Assembly: GCA_035651955.1 (NCBI GenBank)
Contig: DASRES010000069.1
Coordinates: forward strand, 62,001-126,000
Reading direction: 5' to 3'
Source: Acidimicrobiia bacterium
GTDB lineage: Bacteria; Actinomycetota; Acidimicrobiia; IMCC26256; JAMXLJ01
DNA: 64,000 nt
The notes below the pieces were generated by a model. That model saw nothing but the letters and a program-made list of their open reading frames with translations, did no database searches and was not told where the DNA came from. Both the position numbers and the translations under genes were made by a program. Below are positions 35,051-50,969 of the stretch, piece by piece. Position 1 is the stretch's first letter. The number at the start of each line of letters is the position of its first letter.

Positions 35051-36052
35051 TCAGCGCGTGTCGTGCAACGCGGGCAGGACCTGCTCGGCGAAGCGCGCGT
35101 TCGACTCCGCGACGAGGCCGGGGTCCGCGTCGAGCGAGCCCGCGACGACGATCACGCGGTCGATGCCGAGCGCGGCCAGCCCGGCGAGCCGCTCCGTGAC
35201 CTCGTCGGCGCGGCCGATCGCGGCGAACCGGTCGACGAAGTCGTCGTCGAGATGCCGCGCGGCAGGTGCGCTCGCGTCGCCGTGACGCGACGGGTCGTAC
35301 TCGGCCGCGAGCCTCGTGATGCCGGTGCGCGTCACGTCGGAGAGGCCGTTGGGCGGTGCGCCCTCCGCGGAGAACCGGGCCAGGATCGCCGTGCTGCCGC
35401 GCACGAGGTCGCGCGCGACGGCCCGGTCGTCGTGGACCGCGACGTTGACGAAGGCGCCGAGCGAGACGGGTCGTTCTCGTGCTGCCGCGCGCGCCGTGCC
35501 GACGGCCCAACGGACACGGTCGTGCTCGGCTCCGACGGTGAAGTCGATCCGCTCGGCATGACGGGCCCCGATCGCGATCACGCGCGGTCCGGATGCCGCC
35601 ACCGAGACCGGGACCTTCGCCAGGCGGTCGTCGGGGAGCCAGCGGATCTTGCTGTCGGTGCCGTCGCGCGCGACCGCGTCACCGGCGAGGTACCCCTGCA
35701 GATCGACGAGCGCGTCCTCGAACCGATCGAGCGGGACGGGCCGGCGACCGAGCTGCGACAGTGCCGAGTCACCCCGACCCAGGCCGAGAACCGCGCGACC
35801 CCCGGTCTCGTCGTGGAGCGTCGCGGCGGCGGACGCCGTGACCGCGACGTCGCGCGTCTCGGGGTTCGTCACGCCGGGTCCGATCCTGATGCTCGACGTC
35901 GCCGCGCCGGCGAGCGCGAGCTCGACCCAGATGTCGGCGTTGAGGTTCTGACTGTCGGCGAGGATGAAGCCGTCGAAACCGAGCCGCTCGGCGTCGGCTG
36001 CGGCGGGTGCCACCCGGTGCGCGAACGAGAACGAGTGCAGCCAGACCTCCAT
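35051..36052 (-). CDS. Luciferase-like (LLM class) F420-dependent oxidoreductase
   Basis: 333 residues, a TIM-barrel luciferase-like monooxygenase. FDGFILADSQNLNADIWV, IRIGPGVTNPETRDVAV and GRAVLGLGRGDSALSQLGR are the conserved strands and cofactor-binding loop of F420-dependent actinobacterial members. Probably oxidises or reduces a small carbonyl or ring with F420. It is clearly a paralog of the protein at 38623-39648, sharing the SQNL and GxGRGDxAL segments. Six bases from the convergent DUF1214 gene. Confidence 0.86.
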   Translation of the reverse strand: MEVWLHSFSFAHRVAPAAADAERLGFDGFILADSQNLNADIWVELALAGAATSSIRIGPGVTNPETRDVAVTASAAATLHDETGGRAVLGLGRGDSALSQLGRRPVPLDRFEDALVDLQGYLAGDAVARDGTDSKIRWLPDDRLAKVPVSVAASGPRVIAIGARHAERIDFTVGAEHDRVRWAVGTARAAARERPVSLGAFVNVAVHDDRAVARDLVRGSTAILARFSAEGAPPNGLSDVTRTGITRLAAEYDPSRHGDASAPAARHLDDDFVDRFAAIGRADEVTERLAGLAALGIDRVIVVAGSLDADPGLVAESNARFAEQVLPALHDTR

Positions 36053-37892: not shown

Positions 37893-38531
37893 TCAGTCGG
37901 TGATCGCGATCGCGAGACGTCGGGCCGCGAACTCGAGCAGTCGCTCGGCTGGGAACGGGTCGAGCGCGCGGCGTTCGCTCGTGAAGTGGTCGGCGAGGCC
38001 GTTCATCGCCGACCACAGCAACGCGGGCACGAGCTCGTCGTCTGCGACGCGCCGGCCGTCGCGCGCGGCGGCGTCGCGGATCGCGCGCATCAAGAGCTCG
38101 TTGTTCGCCAGCGTCGCCGCGCGCAGCTCGACGATCAGGTCACGTGGGAACGGCGCCGGCTCCTCGTGCGTGTCGTGCCGCAGCGTCGACCACAGCGTGA
38201 AGTGCCGGCCGAACCTGCGGTACAGCTCGAGGTATTCGCCGATCACCCGCTCGAGCAGCGTGGCAAGGTCGCCCGCGCCGTCGACGACCCCGCGCAGCAC
38301 CTCGGTGTGCGCGCGGATCGCCTCCGCGTAGAGCGTCGCGAACAGCTCCTCCTTCGTCGCGAAGTACGAGTACAGCGTCGCGGGCGAGATCCCGGCACCG
38401 GCCGCGAGGTCGCGCATGTTGAGCGACAGGTACCCCGACTCGGTGATCCGGGTCCGGGCCGCGTCGAGGATGTCGGCGCGCCGCCGCGTGCGGTCGCCCC
38501 ACTTCGTCTTGGTCGCCCGTCCCGCCACCAC
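37893..38531 (-). CDS. TetR-family repressor
   Basis: 212 residues. The N-terminal helix-turn-helix (ILDAARTRITESGYLSLNMRDLAAGAGISPATLYSYFATKEEL in outline, about 21-63) is textbook TetR; the rest is the ligand-binding helical domain with a FGRHFTLWSTLRHD segment. GTG start; a second GTG lies three bases in. It diverges from the luciferase-like/amidohydrolase/dioxygenase operon, and two palindromes fill the gap between them, so autoregulation and control of that operon are likely. Confidence 0.9.
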   Translation of the reverse strand: MVAGRATKTKWGDRTRRRADILDAARTRITESGYLSLNMRDLAAGAGISPATLYSYFATKEELFATLYAEAIRAHTEVLRGVVDGAGDLATLLERVIGEYLELYRRFGRHFTLWSTLRHDTHEEPAPFPRDLIVELRAATLANNELLMRAIRDAAARDGRRVADDELVPALLWSAMNGLADHFTSERRALDPFPAERLLEFAARRLAIAITD

Positions 38532-38544
38532 CGACCCCCGAGGA

Positions 38545-38579
38545 AATCGAACGTCGTTTGATTCGAACAGCGTTCGATT
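38545..38579. promoter_or_regulatory. Paired TetR-type operators in the divergent promoter
   Basis: Two adjacent dyads with the same design. The first, at 38546-38562, is ATCGAAC-GTC-GTTTGAT (one mismatch); the second, at 38563-38577, is TCGAAC-AGC-GTTCGA (perfect). Centres are 16 bases apart. They lie 14 bases from the repressor start and 44 bases from the operon start, the expected place for autoregulation. Confidence 0.75.
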
Positions 38580-38622
38580 CTAGAGTGCGTTGCGGGGCGC
38601 AGCCGAGACCGGGGGATGAGGC

Positions 38623-39648
38623 GTGGAGCTGTGGACGATGGGCATGCCCGAGGTCGGCACGGCCGTGGCCCAGGCCCAGCGGGCCGCCGACGGCGGCTGG
38701 GACGGGATCACGTTCACCGACAGCCAGAACCTCGTGGGCGACCCGTTCGTCGCGATCGCGCTCGCCGCCGACCACGTCGCCGGTCTCCGCTTCGCGACCG
38801 GCGTCACGAACGCGGCCACCCGTGATCCCGCCGCGCTCGCGACGGTTGCCGCCACCGTGCAGGAGACGTCCGGCGGGCGGTTCGTGCTCGGGATCGGCCG
38901 GGGCGACACCGCGCTGTTCCACCTCGGACGCAAGCCGATGACGGTCGACGCCTTCACCGCGCGCGTCACGGAGCTGCACACCTATCTCGCCGGCGGGACG
39001 GTCGAGCGCAACGGCCGACCGAGTCGCCTGCTCTGGCTGGCACGCGCGCGGCAACCGAAGGTCCCGCTCGACGTCGCGTCGTCCGGACCACGCGTCATCA
39101 CGTTCGCGGCGCGGGTCGCCGAGCGCGTCACGTTCGCGGTCGGCGCCAATCCCGACCGTGTGGCATGGGCGGTCGACCTCGCGCGGAAGGCCGCCGCCGA
39201 CGCGGGCCGCGATCCCGCCGAGCTCTCGTTCGGCGCGTACGTCAACATCGGGTGTCATCGGGACGTCGACGTCGCGCGCGGCCTGATCGCCGGTGCGGTG
39301 TCCGCGTTTGCCCACTTCTCGGCGATGCCCGGGTCGACCGGTGCCGGGCTCGACGACCACGACCGTGCGGTCGTCGCGGAGGTCGGTCGCCGCTACGACA
39401 GCAACGAGCACCTCCGGAACTCCGCCGCGCACAACGCCGCGCTCGAGCGCGACTTCGTCGACCGCTTCGCGATCGTCGGCCCGCCCGAGCACTGCACCGC
39501 CCGGCTCCGTACGCTCGTGGGCCTCGGCATCGACCGCTTCGTCATCACCGGTGCGACGTTCGGCGCCGACCGCGACGACGCCCGTACCGCGTACCAGCTC
39601 CTCACCAGCGAGGTGCTGCCCGCCGTCCGCGAGGAGACAAAGGCATGA
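38623..39648 (+). CDS. Luciferase-like (LLM class) F420-dependent oxidoreductase
   Basis: 341 residues. WDGITFTDSQNLVGDPFVAI, LRFATGVTNAATRDPAAL and GRFVLGIGRGDTALFHLGRK give the same TIM-barrel and cofactor loop as the 35051-36052 paralog. The GTG start follows GGGGGATGAGGC. First gene of the TetR-controlled operon, followed by an amidohydrolase and a 2-oxoglutarate dioxygenase. Its TGA is also the first triplet of the repeat at 39646-39730. Confidence 0.87.
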   Translation: MELWTMGMPEVGTAVAQAQRAADGGWDGITFTDSQNLVGDPFVAIALAADHVAGLRFATGVTNAATRDPAALATVAATVQETSGGRFVLGIGRGDTALFHLGRKPMTVDAFTARVTELHTYLAGGTVERNGRPSRLLWLARARQPKVPLDVASSGPRVITFAARVAERVTFAVGANPDRVAWAVDLARKAAADAGRDPAELSFGAYVNIGCHRDVDVARGLIAGAVSAFAHFSAMPGSTGAGLDDHDRAVVAEVGRRYDSNEHLRNSAAHNAALERDFVDRFAIVGPPEHCTARLRTLVGLGIDRFVITGATFGADRDDARTAYQLLTSEVLPAVREETKA

Positions 39649-39730
39649 GCGAGCGTCGGGAGGCGGGTATCCCGCCGAGCAGCGAGCGTGGCCCGACCGG
39701 CCCGGCGCGAAGCGCCGAGAGGGGGCAAGC
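39646..39730 (+). repeat. GC-rich stop-to-start spacer repeat, copy A
   Basis: An 85-base spacer starting at the stop codon as TGAGCGAGCG and ending with the ribosome site GGGGGC just before the next ATG. It contains AGCGTGGCC, CGGCCCGGCGC and a hairpin GGCGC-GAA-GCGCC (39704-39716), plus a second hairpin GGCGGG-TAT-CCCGCC. The same order of blocks occurs at 60460-60533. Probably a dispersed element of this genome. Confidence 0.65.
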
Positions 39731-41446
39731 ATGAGTGAACACGACCTGTTGATCCGCGGCGGCACGGTCGTCGACGGAACGGGATCCCCGGCGCGCACGG
39801 CGGACGTCGCGATCGACGGGTCGACGATCACCGACGTCGGGAACCTGCACACGTCCGCGCGTCGCGTCATCGACGCCGACGGCCTGCTCGTCATGCCCGG
39901 GTTCGTCGACATCCACACGCACTATGACGGGCAGGCGTCGTGGGACGAGCGGATGATCCCGTCTTCTTGGCACGGCGTGACCACGGTCGTCGCCGGGAAC
40001 TGCGGCGTCGGCTTCGCACCCGTGCGCGACGCCGACCACGACCGGCTGGTCGAGCTCATGGAGGGCGTCGAGGACATCCCCGGCGTCGCGCTGCACGAGG
40101 GGCTGACCTGGAACTGGCGATCGTTCCCGGACTTCCTCGACGCGCTCGACGGCCGTCACTTCGACGTCGACGTCGCGCTCCAGGTGCCCCACGGTGCGCT
40201 GCGGCTGCACGTCATGGGTGAGCGCGGGGCCCGTCGCGAGCCGGCGACCGACGAGGACATCGCGTTGATGGCGAAGCTCGCGGCCGAGGCGGTCGACGCC
40301 GGCGCGCTCGGCTTCTCGACGTCGCGGACGCTCAACCACCGCACGAGCCGGGGCGAGCTGACGCCGACGCTCACGGCCGAGGCGGGCGAGCTCGTCGGCA
40401 TCGCGACCGCGATCGGCGCGACCGGTCGGGGCGTCCTCCAGGTCGTGTCGGACTTCGCCGACGTGGATGCCGAGTTCGCGATCTTCCGTCGCATGTCGCA
40501 GGAGTCGGGGCGACCGTTGTCGTTCACGTTGCTGCAGACGCGCACCGGGACGTGGCGCCGGCAGCTCGAGCTGCTCGAGCGCGCGAACGCGGAGGGCGTC
40601 CGGATGACGGGCCAGGTCGCGCCCCGGCCGGTCGGCCTGTTGCTCGGGCTCGAGTGCACGCTGCACCCGCTCCTCACGAACCACGTCTACCGCGAGATCG
40701 CGGCACTCCCGCTCGCCGAGCGCGTCGCGACCATGCGCGACCCGTCGTTCAAGCAGCGGGTGCTCGACGCCGCCGGCGAGCACAAGCCGGGGCGCGTCAT
40801 CGACGCGTTCGACCGCGTGTACGAGCTCGGCGACCCGCCCGACTACGAGCCCGATGCGTCGTCGAGCATCGCCGCGCGCGCTGTACGCGAACGCCGCGCG
40901 CCGCTCGACCTTGCGTACGACCTGCTCGTCGAACAGGACGGGCACGCGTTCCTGTACGTGCCGATCCTCAACTACGAGGACGGGAACCTCGACGCGGCCG
41001 GTGAGATGCTCGCCCACCCGAACACGGTCGTGGGTCTCGGCGACGGTGGCGCGCACGTCGGCACGATCTGCGACGCGAGCTTCCCGACGACGCTGCTCAC
41101 GCTCTGGGGACGCGACCGCGACCACGGGCGACTCGACGTACCGTTCCTCGTGCAGCGGCAGACGAGCGCCACCGCGCGCACCGTCGGGCTGCACGACCGG
41201 GGCGTGCTCGCACCCGGCTACCGCGCGGACGTGAACGTCATCGACTTCGACCGGCTGACCGCGCGCCGGCCCGAGATGCGTCACGACCTGCCCGCGGGTG
41301 GGAGACGTCTGGTGCAGCGCGCGGACGGCTACGTGACGACGATCGCCGGGGGCGTCCCGACGTACGAGCACGGCGAGGCGACCGGACCGCTGCCCGGCCG
41401 TCTGCTCCGCGGACCACGGCCGGCACCGACGACGGAGGCGCGCTGA
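39731..41446 (+). CDS. Amidohydrolase, N-acyl-D-amino-acid deacylase-like
   Basis: 571 residues. [18 protein letters not shown] holds the HxH metal motif on strand 1 (about 57-74); [10 protein letters not shown], the [13 protein letters not shown] segment and [19 protein letters not shown] (about 437-455) with the catalytic Asp fit the metal-dependent amidohydrolase superfamily, D-aminoacylase branch. The final ~50 residues complete the composite beta-sandwich. It would cut an amide or cyclic amide bond. ATG directly after the spacer repeat; its stop lies two bases before the dioxygenase ATG. Confidence 0.88.
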
Positions 41447-41448
41447 CG

Positions 41449-42498
41449 ATGACCGCCACGACGATCCCCGATCCCGCGACGCTCACGCCGCTCGAGACGC
41501 ACTGCGAGTGGCGGAGCGACGAGCTCGGCGACGGCTATGTCTTCCACCTCACGGACGCGCACGTCGACGAGCTCGACGCCGCGTTGCGCCATGCCGAGTT
41601 CGTGACCGACGACGTCCTCGACATCACGCGTGACTCGTTCCCGCTGCCGACCCTCGCACCGGAGCTCGACCGCGTCGCGCGCGACCTGATCGACGGGCGC
41701 GGGGTCGTGCTGATCCGCGGTGTGCCCGTCGAGCGGTACGGCAAGGAGCGGGCGTCGAAGATCTACTGGGGTGTCGGGATGCACCTCGGCCGGCCCTGGC
41801 CCCAGAACGCCAAGGGCCACCTGCTCGGTGACGTCACCGACCAGGGCCGCGCCGCGAGCGACCCGACGTCGCGCGGTAACGAGATCGGCGGCATCGCCTT
41901 TCCGTTCCACTCCGACGGGTCCGATCTCGTCGGGCTGTTCTGTCTCGACGCGGGCGCGAGCGGGGGCGCGAGCCTGGTCGCGAACGCGGTCGCGGTACAC
42001 AACGAGATGGTCCGCACCGAGCCCGATCTCGCGGCGGAGCTGTACGCGCCGTTCGCGTACGACTTCCGCGGCGAGCAGGCGCCGGGGACGAAGCCCTGGT
42101 ACACGATGCCGGTGTTCACGCGTCGCGGGGACCGGCTCTTCGTGCGCTACATCCGGCCGTACATCGAAGCCGCCCGCCGTCACGCCGACGCGCCCCGACC
42201 GTCCGACAAGGCACGGGCCGCGATGGACCGGGTCGACGAGCTCTGCGCCGACCCGCGCTTCCACGCGTCGATGACGATGCAGCCCGGCGACATGCAGTTC
42301 GTGGACAACTACCACGTGCTCCACGCCCGCGACGCGTACGTGGACGACCGGCCGTCGGGCCGCATCCGTCATCTCAAGCGGCTCTGGCTCGAGACCGACG
42401 TGCTGAGCGACGACGACAAGCCCGAGCCGTTCCGCCTCGCGGGGCGGAGCGACTGGTGGTCACGCTACGGCCGCACGAAGAGCGAGCTGAAGGTCTGA
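41449..42498 (+). CDS. TauD-like Fe(II)/2-oxoglutarate-type dioxygenase
   Basis: 349 residues. FPFHSDGSD supplies His154 and Asp156; VDNYHVLHARDAYVDD near 286-300 supplies the distal His, and SGRIRHLKRLWLE the 2-oxoglutarate-binding Arg region. The long N-terminus and these loops place it with TauD-like proteins of unknown substrate rather than true TauD. Third gene of the TetR-controlled operon, so the product of the amidohydrolase or luciferase-like enzyme may be hydroxylated here. Followed by a terminator. Confidence 0.85.
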   Translation: MTATTIPDPATLTPLETHCEWRSDELGDGYVFHLTDAHVDELDAALRHAEFVTDDVLDITRDSFPLPTLAPELDRVARDLIDGRGVVLIRGVPVERYGKERASKIYWGVGMHLGRPWPQNAKGHLLGDVTDQGRAASDPTSRGNEIGGIAFPFHSDGSDLVGLFCLDAGASGGASLVANAVAVHNEMVRTEPDLAAELYAPFAYDFRGEQAPGTKPWYTMPVFTRRGDRLFVRYIRPYIEAARRHADAPRPSDKARAAMDRVDELCADPRFHASMTMQPGDMQFVDNYHVLHARDAYVDDRPSGRIRHLKRLWLETDVLSDDDKPEPFRLAGRSDWWSRYGRTKSELKV

Positions 42499-49313: not shown

Positions 49314-50969
49314 TCACTCGCCGGACGAGACCCGACCGCCGCGCGGGTTGGACACCTCGCCCGGCAACGGCGCACCGCCGTTCGGCAGCTGCTGCGCGTT
49401 CGACACCGACGGATGCTGCAGGCCGGCCGGACCGCGGCCGAACGCCTCGAGCACGTTCCACGTCACGGTCACCACGGCGTCGTTGTGCAGGCACCCGCCC
49501 TGCGGGCACGGACCCGTCAGGTTGGCGACCCAGATGCTCGTGCCGGTGTCGAAGACACCCGCACCGCTCGGGGCCGTGTAGTACGTCATGTCGGCGTAGC
49601 TCGGCCGTCGCTGGCACCGCACCGGCGAGTGCGCGAGCACCGTGACGTTCTTCGGTCCGGGCAGGTTCGGGTTGTACCGGTCGTACTCGCTCCCGACGAG
49701 ATGCGGGAGATGCGCACCGTTCCGCAGTCCCGTGCCCGCGAACTCCCATTGCGACGCGTCGAGCACGACCATGTCCGCGTCGACCGGGTTGCACTCGTAC
49801 TCACCCCCGAGGAGCGTGCTCTCCGGGTGGTCGAGCGGCGGCGCGCGCCAGTCGACCGTCACCTCGCTCTTGTCGGTCGTCGGGTCCTCGCTCGCGCTCT
49901 TGTAGTCGACGACGTGCCGGTCGGGTCCGAGCGTCGACGGCTCGAACCGGATGTGGCGGAACACCGCGTTCGCGCCGAGGAACACGAGGTTGACGCCGTG
50001 GTCGCGGGCGTTCTCGGCGCCGGCGCGCATCGACGTCGACCAGTACTCGTCGTGGCCGAGCGTGACGAGCACCCTGTGCTGCAGGACGAGCTGCGGCGCG
50101 CGATGGAGGTCGACGTCGGTCCAGTACGTGACGTCGAGGCCCTTCGACTCCGCGAGCCAGACGAGCGGCAGCTCGTTGCCGACGAACTCCGACGCGCCGT
50201 CGTGGTCGTACGGGCGGTCGAACGACACGATTCGCGCGCGCTGGGCGAAGCTCGGATGGCTGGGGGGTCCACCGAGGTACAGGTCGTAGCCGCCCCACAT
50301 GTTGTACGCCTGCCACGTCGCGACCGAGCTCTGGATCAGGTACGCGGCGTGGCTGGCGTCGTCGCGCACCGTCAACGGGATGTAGCGCTGCGCGCCGGTC
50401 GACGCGACGAGCTTGAACAGGTACTCGCCCGGCGGCCACGTCTTGTCGACGGTGACGGACAGCGACGGCTGCCAGTGCGTCTCGACCATGTTCACGCGTG
50501 GGACGACGACGGGATCGGGCTGCTTCACGCCCTGCTGCTGCGCCGAGCGCCAGACCAGCCGACCGCCGAGACCCTGGTAGTAGCCCATGCGGTACGCCTC
50601 GACGTCGAACGCGGGCGCCGTGGTCGAGACGAAGAGGCGGACGGTGTCGCCCTGCTGGACGCTCACCTGGTCCGCGTAGCCCTCGATCGCGTGGGTCGCA
50701 CCGGCGTTCGTGATCGCCCAGTCGCGGGTGCCGGGCTTGCGGTTCTCCTTCTCGACCCACGACGCCGTCGGCGCGCTCGAACTCGCCAGCGCGGTCGCGT
50801 CGACGGTCGGGCGCGTCGTCGCGTGCCGGTGGTCCGCGGCGGTGCGCGACGGGCGCGACGCCGTGTGCACGATCGCGGTCGTCCCCCGCCCCGACCCGCC
50901 GGGCCAGACCGCCCAGACGCACAGCGCGACGAGGACGGCGAGCGCCAGCGGCGCGTGGCGGCGGTCCAT
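49314..50969 (-). CDS. Exported N,N-dimethylformamidase large-subunit-like protein
   Basis: 551 residues. One N-terminal helix (about 7-24) is a signal anchor, followed by a Ser/Thr-rich linker. The remainder (WQAYNMWGGYDLYLGG near 215-230, VTLGHDEYWSTSMRAGAENA near 305-325, ANAVFRHIRFEP) matches the C-terminal domain of the N,N-dimethylformamidase large subunit family; most such actinobacterial proteins are of unknown activity. The tail has CPQGGCLHNDAVVTVTWN. It ends 22 bases from the convergent HxlR gene. Confidence 0.8.
   Translation of the reverse strand: MDRRHAPLALAVLVALCVWAVWPGGSGRGTTAIVHTASRPSRTAADHRHATTRPTVDATALASSSAPTASWVEKENRKPGTRDWAITNAGATHAIEGYADQVSVQQGDTVRLFVSTTAPAFDVEAYRMGYYQGLGGRLVWRSAQQQGVKQPDPVVVPRVNMVETHWQPSLSVTVDKTWPPGEYLFKLVASTGAQRYIPLTVRDDASHAAYLIQSSVATWQAYNMWGGYDLYLGGPPSHPSFAQRARIVSFDRPYDHDGASEFVGNELPLVWLAESKGLDVTYWTDVDLHRAPQLVLQHRVLVTLGHDEYWSTSMRAGAENARDHGVNLVFLGANAVFRHIRFEPSTLGPDRHVVDYKSASEDPTTDKSEVTVDWRAPPLDHPESTLLGGEYECNPVDADMVVLDASQWEFAGTGLRNGAHLPHLVGSEYDRYNPNLPGPKNVTVLAHSPVRCQRRPSYADMTYYTAPSGAGVFDTGTSIWVANLTGPCPQGGCLHNDAVVTVTWNVLEAFGRGPAGLQHPSVSNAQQLPNGGAPLPGEVSNPRGGRVSSGE

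Follow-up and report, generated by a model that had tools for sequence, protein, structure and literature searches.

In a divergent promoter of the stretch of DNA analysed here (64 kb, the window), a TetR-family autorepressor quite likely acts through two 15-bp palindromes to silence both tetR and an operon for three enzymes, with a small-molecule ligand releasing the two. The features of the locus are listed below, together with the counterparts of the putative operators at L002 (G046:C235), a locus in an actinobacterial MAG that belongs to the same order as the window genome and to another family.

37893..38531, minus strand: TetR-family regulator P0001, 212 aa (TetR_N 1e-13; PF00440 51.3 bits, cut-off 24)
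38547-38561: putative operator O1, TCGAACGTCGTTTGA, from a palindrome search (L002 counterpart TCGAACACCGTTTGA at 1524)
38563-38577: putative operator O2, TCGAACAGCGTTCGA, from a palindrome search (identical in L002, at 1540)
38623..39648, plus strand: LLM1 (P0002), luciferase-like monooxygenase family, 341 aa (Bac_luciferase 3.4e-40)
39645..39733, plus strand: dispersed genomic repeat between LLM1 and AH3 (at least 27 matches in its own genome)
39731..41446, plus strand: AH3 (P0004), amidohydrolase of D-aminoacylase fold, 571 aa (Amidohydro_3 8.1e-57, obtained on the longer ORF 39293-41446; Z 39.7)
41449..42498, plus strand: TauD-type Fe(II)/2-oxoglutarate dioxygenase P0003, 349 aa (TauD 6.9e-39)

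Tandem palindromes in the divergent promoter

Between the TetR start at 38531 on the minus strand and the GTG of LLM1 at 38623 lies an intergenic gap of 91 bases. The original prediction described two palindromes of the same design, 16 bases apart, that fill this promoter. The spacing is upheld as the distance between the starts of two 15-bp sites separated by one base, but together O1 and O2 occupy 31 of the 91 bases, and the repeat unit, first given as GAAC-N3-GTTYGA, is in full the longer TCGAAC-N3-GTTYGA. Each site has six of seven symmetric pairs, and the two are identical at 12 of 15 bases. The central GTTTGA-T-TCGAAC, which spans the junction of O1 and O2, is itself an inverted repeat.

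O1/O2 is the sole pair of such quality in the window at spacings of 12-40 bp. At least one equally good pair arose in 25 of 100 Markov-simulated 64-kb windows, so that by symmetry alone O1/O2 is unremarkable per 64 kb, which is the point in favor of a chance pair. Its significance derives instead from where it lies, within a divergent promoter of 91 bp, and from its conservation, with 29 of the 31 site bases equal in L002. These two features make a chance origin very improbable, and as read from the sequences O1/O2 is not a chance pair.

Conservation of the regulator and its putative sites

Scanning of genome contigs with the TauD protein yielded 52 loci. At L002, a TetR orthologue (75% identity) is divergent from the same trio of enzyme genes and the tandem lies between them, with all four half-sites and their spacing preserved. 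Identity extends to 43 of 55 positions over a wider block, as against 13 of 50 in the left flank of the sites and 18 of 38 in the right flank; at third codon positions of AH3, TauD and TetR the agreement is 0.55-0.62. The predicted TetR-type repressor with putative tandem operators on a three-enzyme operon thus finds support in a second genome, where regulator and tandem were kept together.

The tandem pattern was found in two of 58 genomes of the order, and TetR (E<=1e-25) in the same two. Across the class, with at most seven candidates scored per genome, a search weaker than the order-wide one, a TetR orthologue occurs in at least two of 395 genomes. This joint presence or absence across 58 genomes bears on the idea that the palindromes bind another regulator and that the divergent TetR is a bystander. 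Divergent promoters can, as a matter of general knowledge, host other regulators, but both the co-occurrence and the finding that the other match in the phylum is likewise a tetR promoter (see below) leave this idea a slim chance.

The original prediction was to fall if the trio were not conserved or if the palindromes were absent upstream of orthologous operons, and here the outcome was divided: the trio is kept together in other genomes, but the palindromes are missing upstream of L003, L004 and L007. In these operons, whose promoters are readable, no nearby site was found at up to two mismatches, the only one at L003 being 4.6 kb off. The TetR orthologue is also absent at all three, so that the palindromes are missing where the regulator was lost or never acquired, and regulation of this type is not integral to the pathway. 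The promoter of L001 is off its contig, L014 comprises part of TauD only, and L005 is a TauD relative without AH3. The pairing of TetR and putative operator is seen in two genomes only; on the sequences compared, the switch is local and sporadic, and the enzymes are older.

Tandem sites elsewhere and possible modes of binding

Among 396 genomes of the phylum, the tandem pattern was seen in the window genome and one other, G416, where it stands before the gene of a TetR_C_1 repressor, with an NmrA-like gene transcribed divergently. There (L081:1462-1562), RAAC-N3-GTT units start at 1500, 1516, 1532 and 1548, in exact 16-bp steps, and a fifth is found at 1462, 38 bp from the next. The units have four to six of seven symmetric pairs, three of the five being weaker than the window palindromes. 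The G416 repressor gives a short HTH match to P0001 and, at the level of sequence, is unrelated to it beyond that match. Occurrence of a 16-bp tandem before an unrelated TetR gene indicates that the operator design recurs, which supports the reading of a TetR operator and lowers its novelty.

A different arrangement, which we consider possible and rather doubtful, is that the four half-sites constitute one composite operator bound by a dimer of dimers, as in QacR, CgmR and Ms6564, with the central inverted repeat perhaps read too. That inverted repeat is present, and the four half-sites with their spacing are kept in L002. In PMC4150764, TetR proteins that bind as two dimers, QacR, CgmR, Ms6564 and CprB among them, use operators of 22-32 bp, a range that includes the 31 bp of O1 plus O2; unlike those systems, the window has two full palindromes, and its operators are predicted. 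Each palindrome is, however, complete alone, and the run of four units at 16-bp steps in G416 is a better fit to a modular 15-bp operator. One TetR dimer per palindrome would be the preferred arrangement.

In the window genome, the shorter unit GAAC-N3-GTTYGA has six matches with both strands counted, of which three belong to the window pair. Three single sites were rejected as second targets of the regulator on the basis of open frames only: the one on C77 is inside a long high-GC3 frame, that at C69:46541 is within a long opposite-strand frame, and that on C27, which repeats the O2 core, lies between likely genes and has its own GGACCGTT/AACGGTCC arms.

A proposed switch

A consensus promoter scan found no promoter, and the following candidate hexamers were placed by inference.

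38558..38563, plus strand: candidate -35 of the operon promoter, TTGATT, overlapping O1 (same hexamer in L002)
38581..38586, plus strand: candidate -10 of the operon promoter, TAGAGT (TAGGCT in L002)
38577..38582, minus strand: candidate -10 of the tetR promoter, TAGAAT, touching O2 (identical in L002)

The plus-strand hexamers are weak, matching at four of six positions each. Their spacer is 17 bp; in L002 the hexamers are at the same distance, and TAGGCT ends 8 bases before the ATG. With one TetR dimer on each of O1 and O2, 16 bp apart, O1 would overlap the operon's likely -35 and O2 would take up most of the spacer to the -10. On the minus strand, O2 would abut the likely tetR -10, placing both operators just downstream of that element. 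Repressor bound at O1 and O2 would therefore block both directions, such that a single nucleoprotein complex may silence tetR and the operon together. The promoters would be freed by a small-molecule ligand, presumably one of the substrates or products of the enzymes; the original prediction proposed the substrate or an early product. Gene families, tandem sites and the joint conservation of TetR and sites are observed directly in the sequences, from which binding, repression, promoter elements, ligand and reactions are inferred.

Tn10 tetR/tetA is the archetype of divergent TetR-family autoregulatory switches with multiple operators. The window resembles it in that the repressor gene is divergent from its target and two palindromic putative operators occupy the common promoter. 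It differs in that the operators are 16 bp apart and the target is an enzyme operon rather than a pump.

The regulator and the enzymes of the operon

The operon had been described as combining a luciferase-like enzyme, an amidohydrolase and a TauD-like dioxygenase, an assignment that the Bac_luciferase, Amidohydro_3 and TauD domain matches bear out. Among the NCBIfam matches listed (for AH3, the best 25 of 52), none of the four locus proteins is above a family cut-off. Thus P0001 is below every named-equivalog cut-off among its listed matches, the best being NF050111 at 36.4 bits against 250, and LLM1 scores 137.4 bits against TIGR03842, an F420-dependent LLM oxidoreductase family, with a cut-off of 295.45. 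The nearest solved structures to LLM1 are of F420-dependent Mer, and LLM1 is probably F420-dependent. The window genome has the F420-synthesis gene cofH (475.6 bits, cut-off 374.1), the sole F420 gene searched.

The AH3 model has a mean pLDDT of 82.8, with active-site loops below 50. It is closest to D-aminoacylase (Z 39.7, rmsd 2.5, 402 residues), with N-acyl-D-glutamate deacylase and others tied within 1 to 1.5. All 28 sequences compared share H62, H64, C91, H154, H203, D438 and H442. D-aminoacylase has metal-ligand histidines on strands 5 and 6, His220 and His250, where tight zinc is bound. AH3 residues 230-246 and 258-274, which we take to be near the ends of those strands (a mapping by strand order), contain no conserved His in the 28 sequences. 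Hence AH3, at 571 aa, is like D-aminoacylase and N-acyl-D-glutamate deacylase in fold and in the HxH and Cys of the metal region, but probably differs from them around those strand ends. The apparent absence of these histidines despite the D-aminoacylase fold makes it unsafe to deduce an amide substrate from the family name; the original prediction had proposed an amide-containing or heterocyclic compound.

The TauD model (mean pLDDT 91.3) is closest to TtnM (Z 31.6, rmsd 2.6, 287 residues, 32% identity over aligned residues), and FrbJ also aligns (Z 29.9, rmsd 2.1, 267 residues, 28% identity over aligned residues); both are matched at the sequence level too. H154, D156 and H292 (HxD...H), presumably the iron triad by position, are invariant in 30 sequences. 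TauD is like these natural-product hydroxylases of tautomycetin (TtnM) and phosphonate (FrbJ) in fold and in HxD...H, but TtnM and FrbJ sit in biosynthetic clusters, whereas TauD here is linked to an amidohydrolase. The probable F420-dependent oxidoreductase, the D-aminoacylase-fold amidohydrolase and the TauD-type hydroxylase may act on one substrate.

The repeat between LLM1 and AH3 contains GGCGGGTATCCCGCC and a second hairpin-like part; its 27 matches include the copy at 39645-39733 and were obtained by scoring 40 of 103 candidates. Twelve further copies were read, and in several of them an ATG or GTG follows immediately. Because the LLM1-AH3 spacer of L002 is only about 11 bases, the repeat was probably inserted into the window operon.

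A second LLM-family gene (35051-36052), 1.8 kb from the TetR gene and 42% identical to LLM1, is possibly an old duplicate of it. The gene at 49314-50969, downstream of the operon by about 7 kb, carries an N,N-dimethylformamidase beta-subunit C-terminal domain (DMFA2_C 3.4e-116). Nearby genes for a sulfotransferase, enoyl-CoA hydratase, SDR, alpha/beta hydrolase and acyl-CoA ligase were set aside as pathway members because they are absent beside the trio in L002, L003 and L004, a comparison that covered all of these but the SDR; L007 shows only a 42% acyl-CoA ligase fragment.

Distribution of the enzyme genes

Of the 48 loci that could be assessed, 42 have AH3 immediately before TauD, with Acidimicrobiia and many Phenylobacterium MAGs among them, and six (L005, L006, L026, L047, L049 and L052) have no AH3 beside TauD; the contigs of the other four of the 52 loci are too short to assess. 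In the phylum sample, AH3 adjoins four of four further TauD relatives at 54-60% identity, and none of four relatives at 45% identity or less, with up to 1.5 kb covered on each side.

LLM1, at a match of at least 72%, adjoins AH3-TauD in L002, L003, L004 and L007; at the edge of its contig, L001 has a segment that matches LLM1 residues 307-340 (56%). LLM1 thus accompanies AH3-TauD in five of 42 loci, L001 included, with L027 too short upstream to judge. The alphaproteobacterial L039, L040 and L041 have an LLM-family gene other than LLM1 slightly upstream, as assigned by Pfam for L039 and by clustering for L040 and L041. From this distribution, AH3-TauD looks like an older core, to which LLM1 would be a clade addition and TetR a sporadic one. 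In Phenylobacterium loci (L018, L021 and similar), an enoyl-CoA hydratase-like gene often comes after AH3-TauD, which has genes for a PLP enzyme and a C-5 cytosine DNA methylase beside it.

A tentative proposal, to which we give somewhat less than even weight, is that AH3 and TauD form a two-enzyme catabolic module for one substrate class, common to Acidimicrobiia and Phenylobacterium-like Alphaproteobacteria. An atypical D-aminoacylase-fold enzyme would be paired with a TtnM/FrbJ-like hydroxylase, and the F420 enzyme and a dedicated TetR sensor would have been added in some actinobacteria.

Implications

The literature searched, on the gene set, PDB 7N7V, FrbJ, the amidohydrolase group and tandem TetR operators, gave no account of the LLM-AH3-TauD trio, a result that does not prove its absence from the literature. 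The switch is of a known kind, and is a new example before a conserved enzyme set without description in the literature searched. The locus supplies, for this enzyme set, a conserved putative operator sequence and a likely cognate regulator. The ligand of TetR, once known, would indicate which substrate is used by the AH3-TauD pair, found repeatedly in two phyla.
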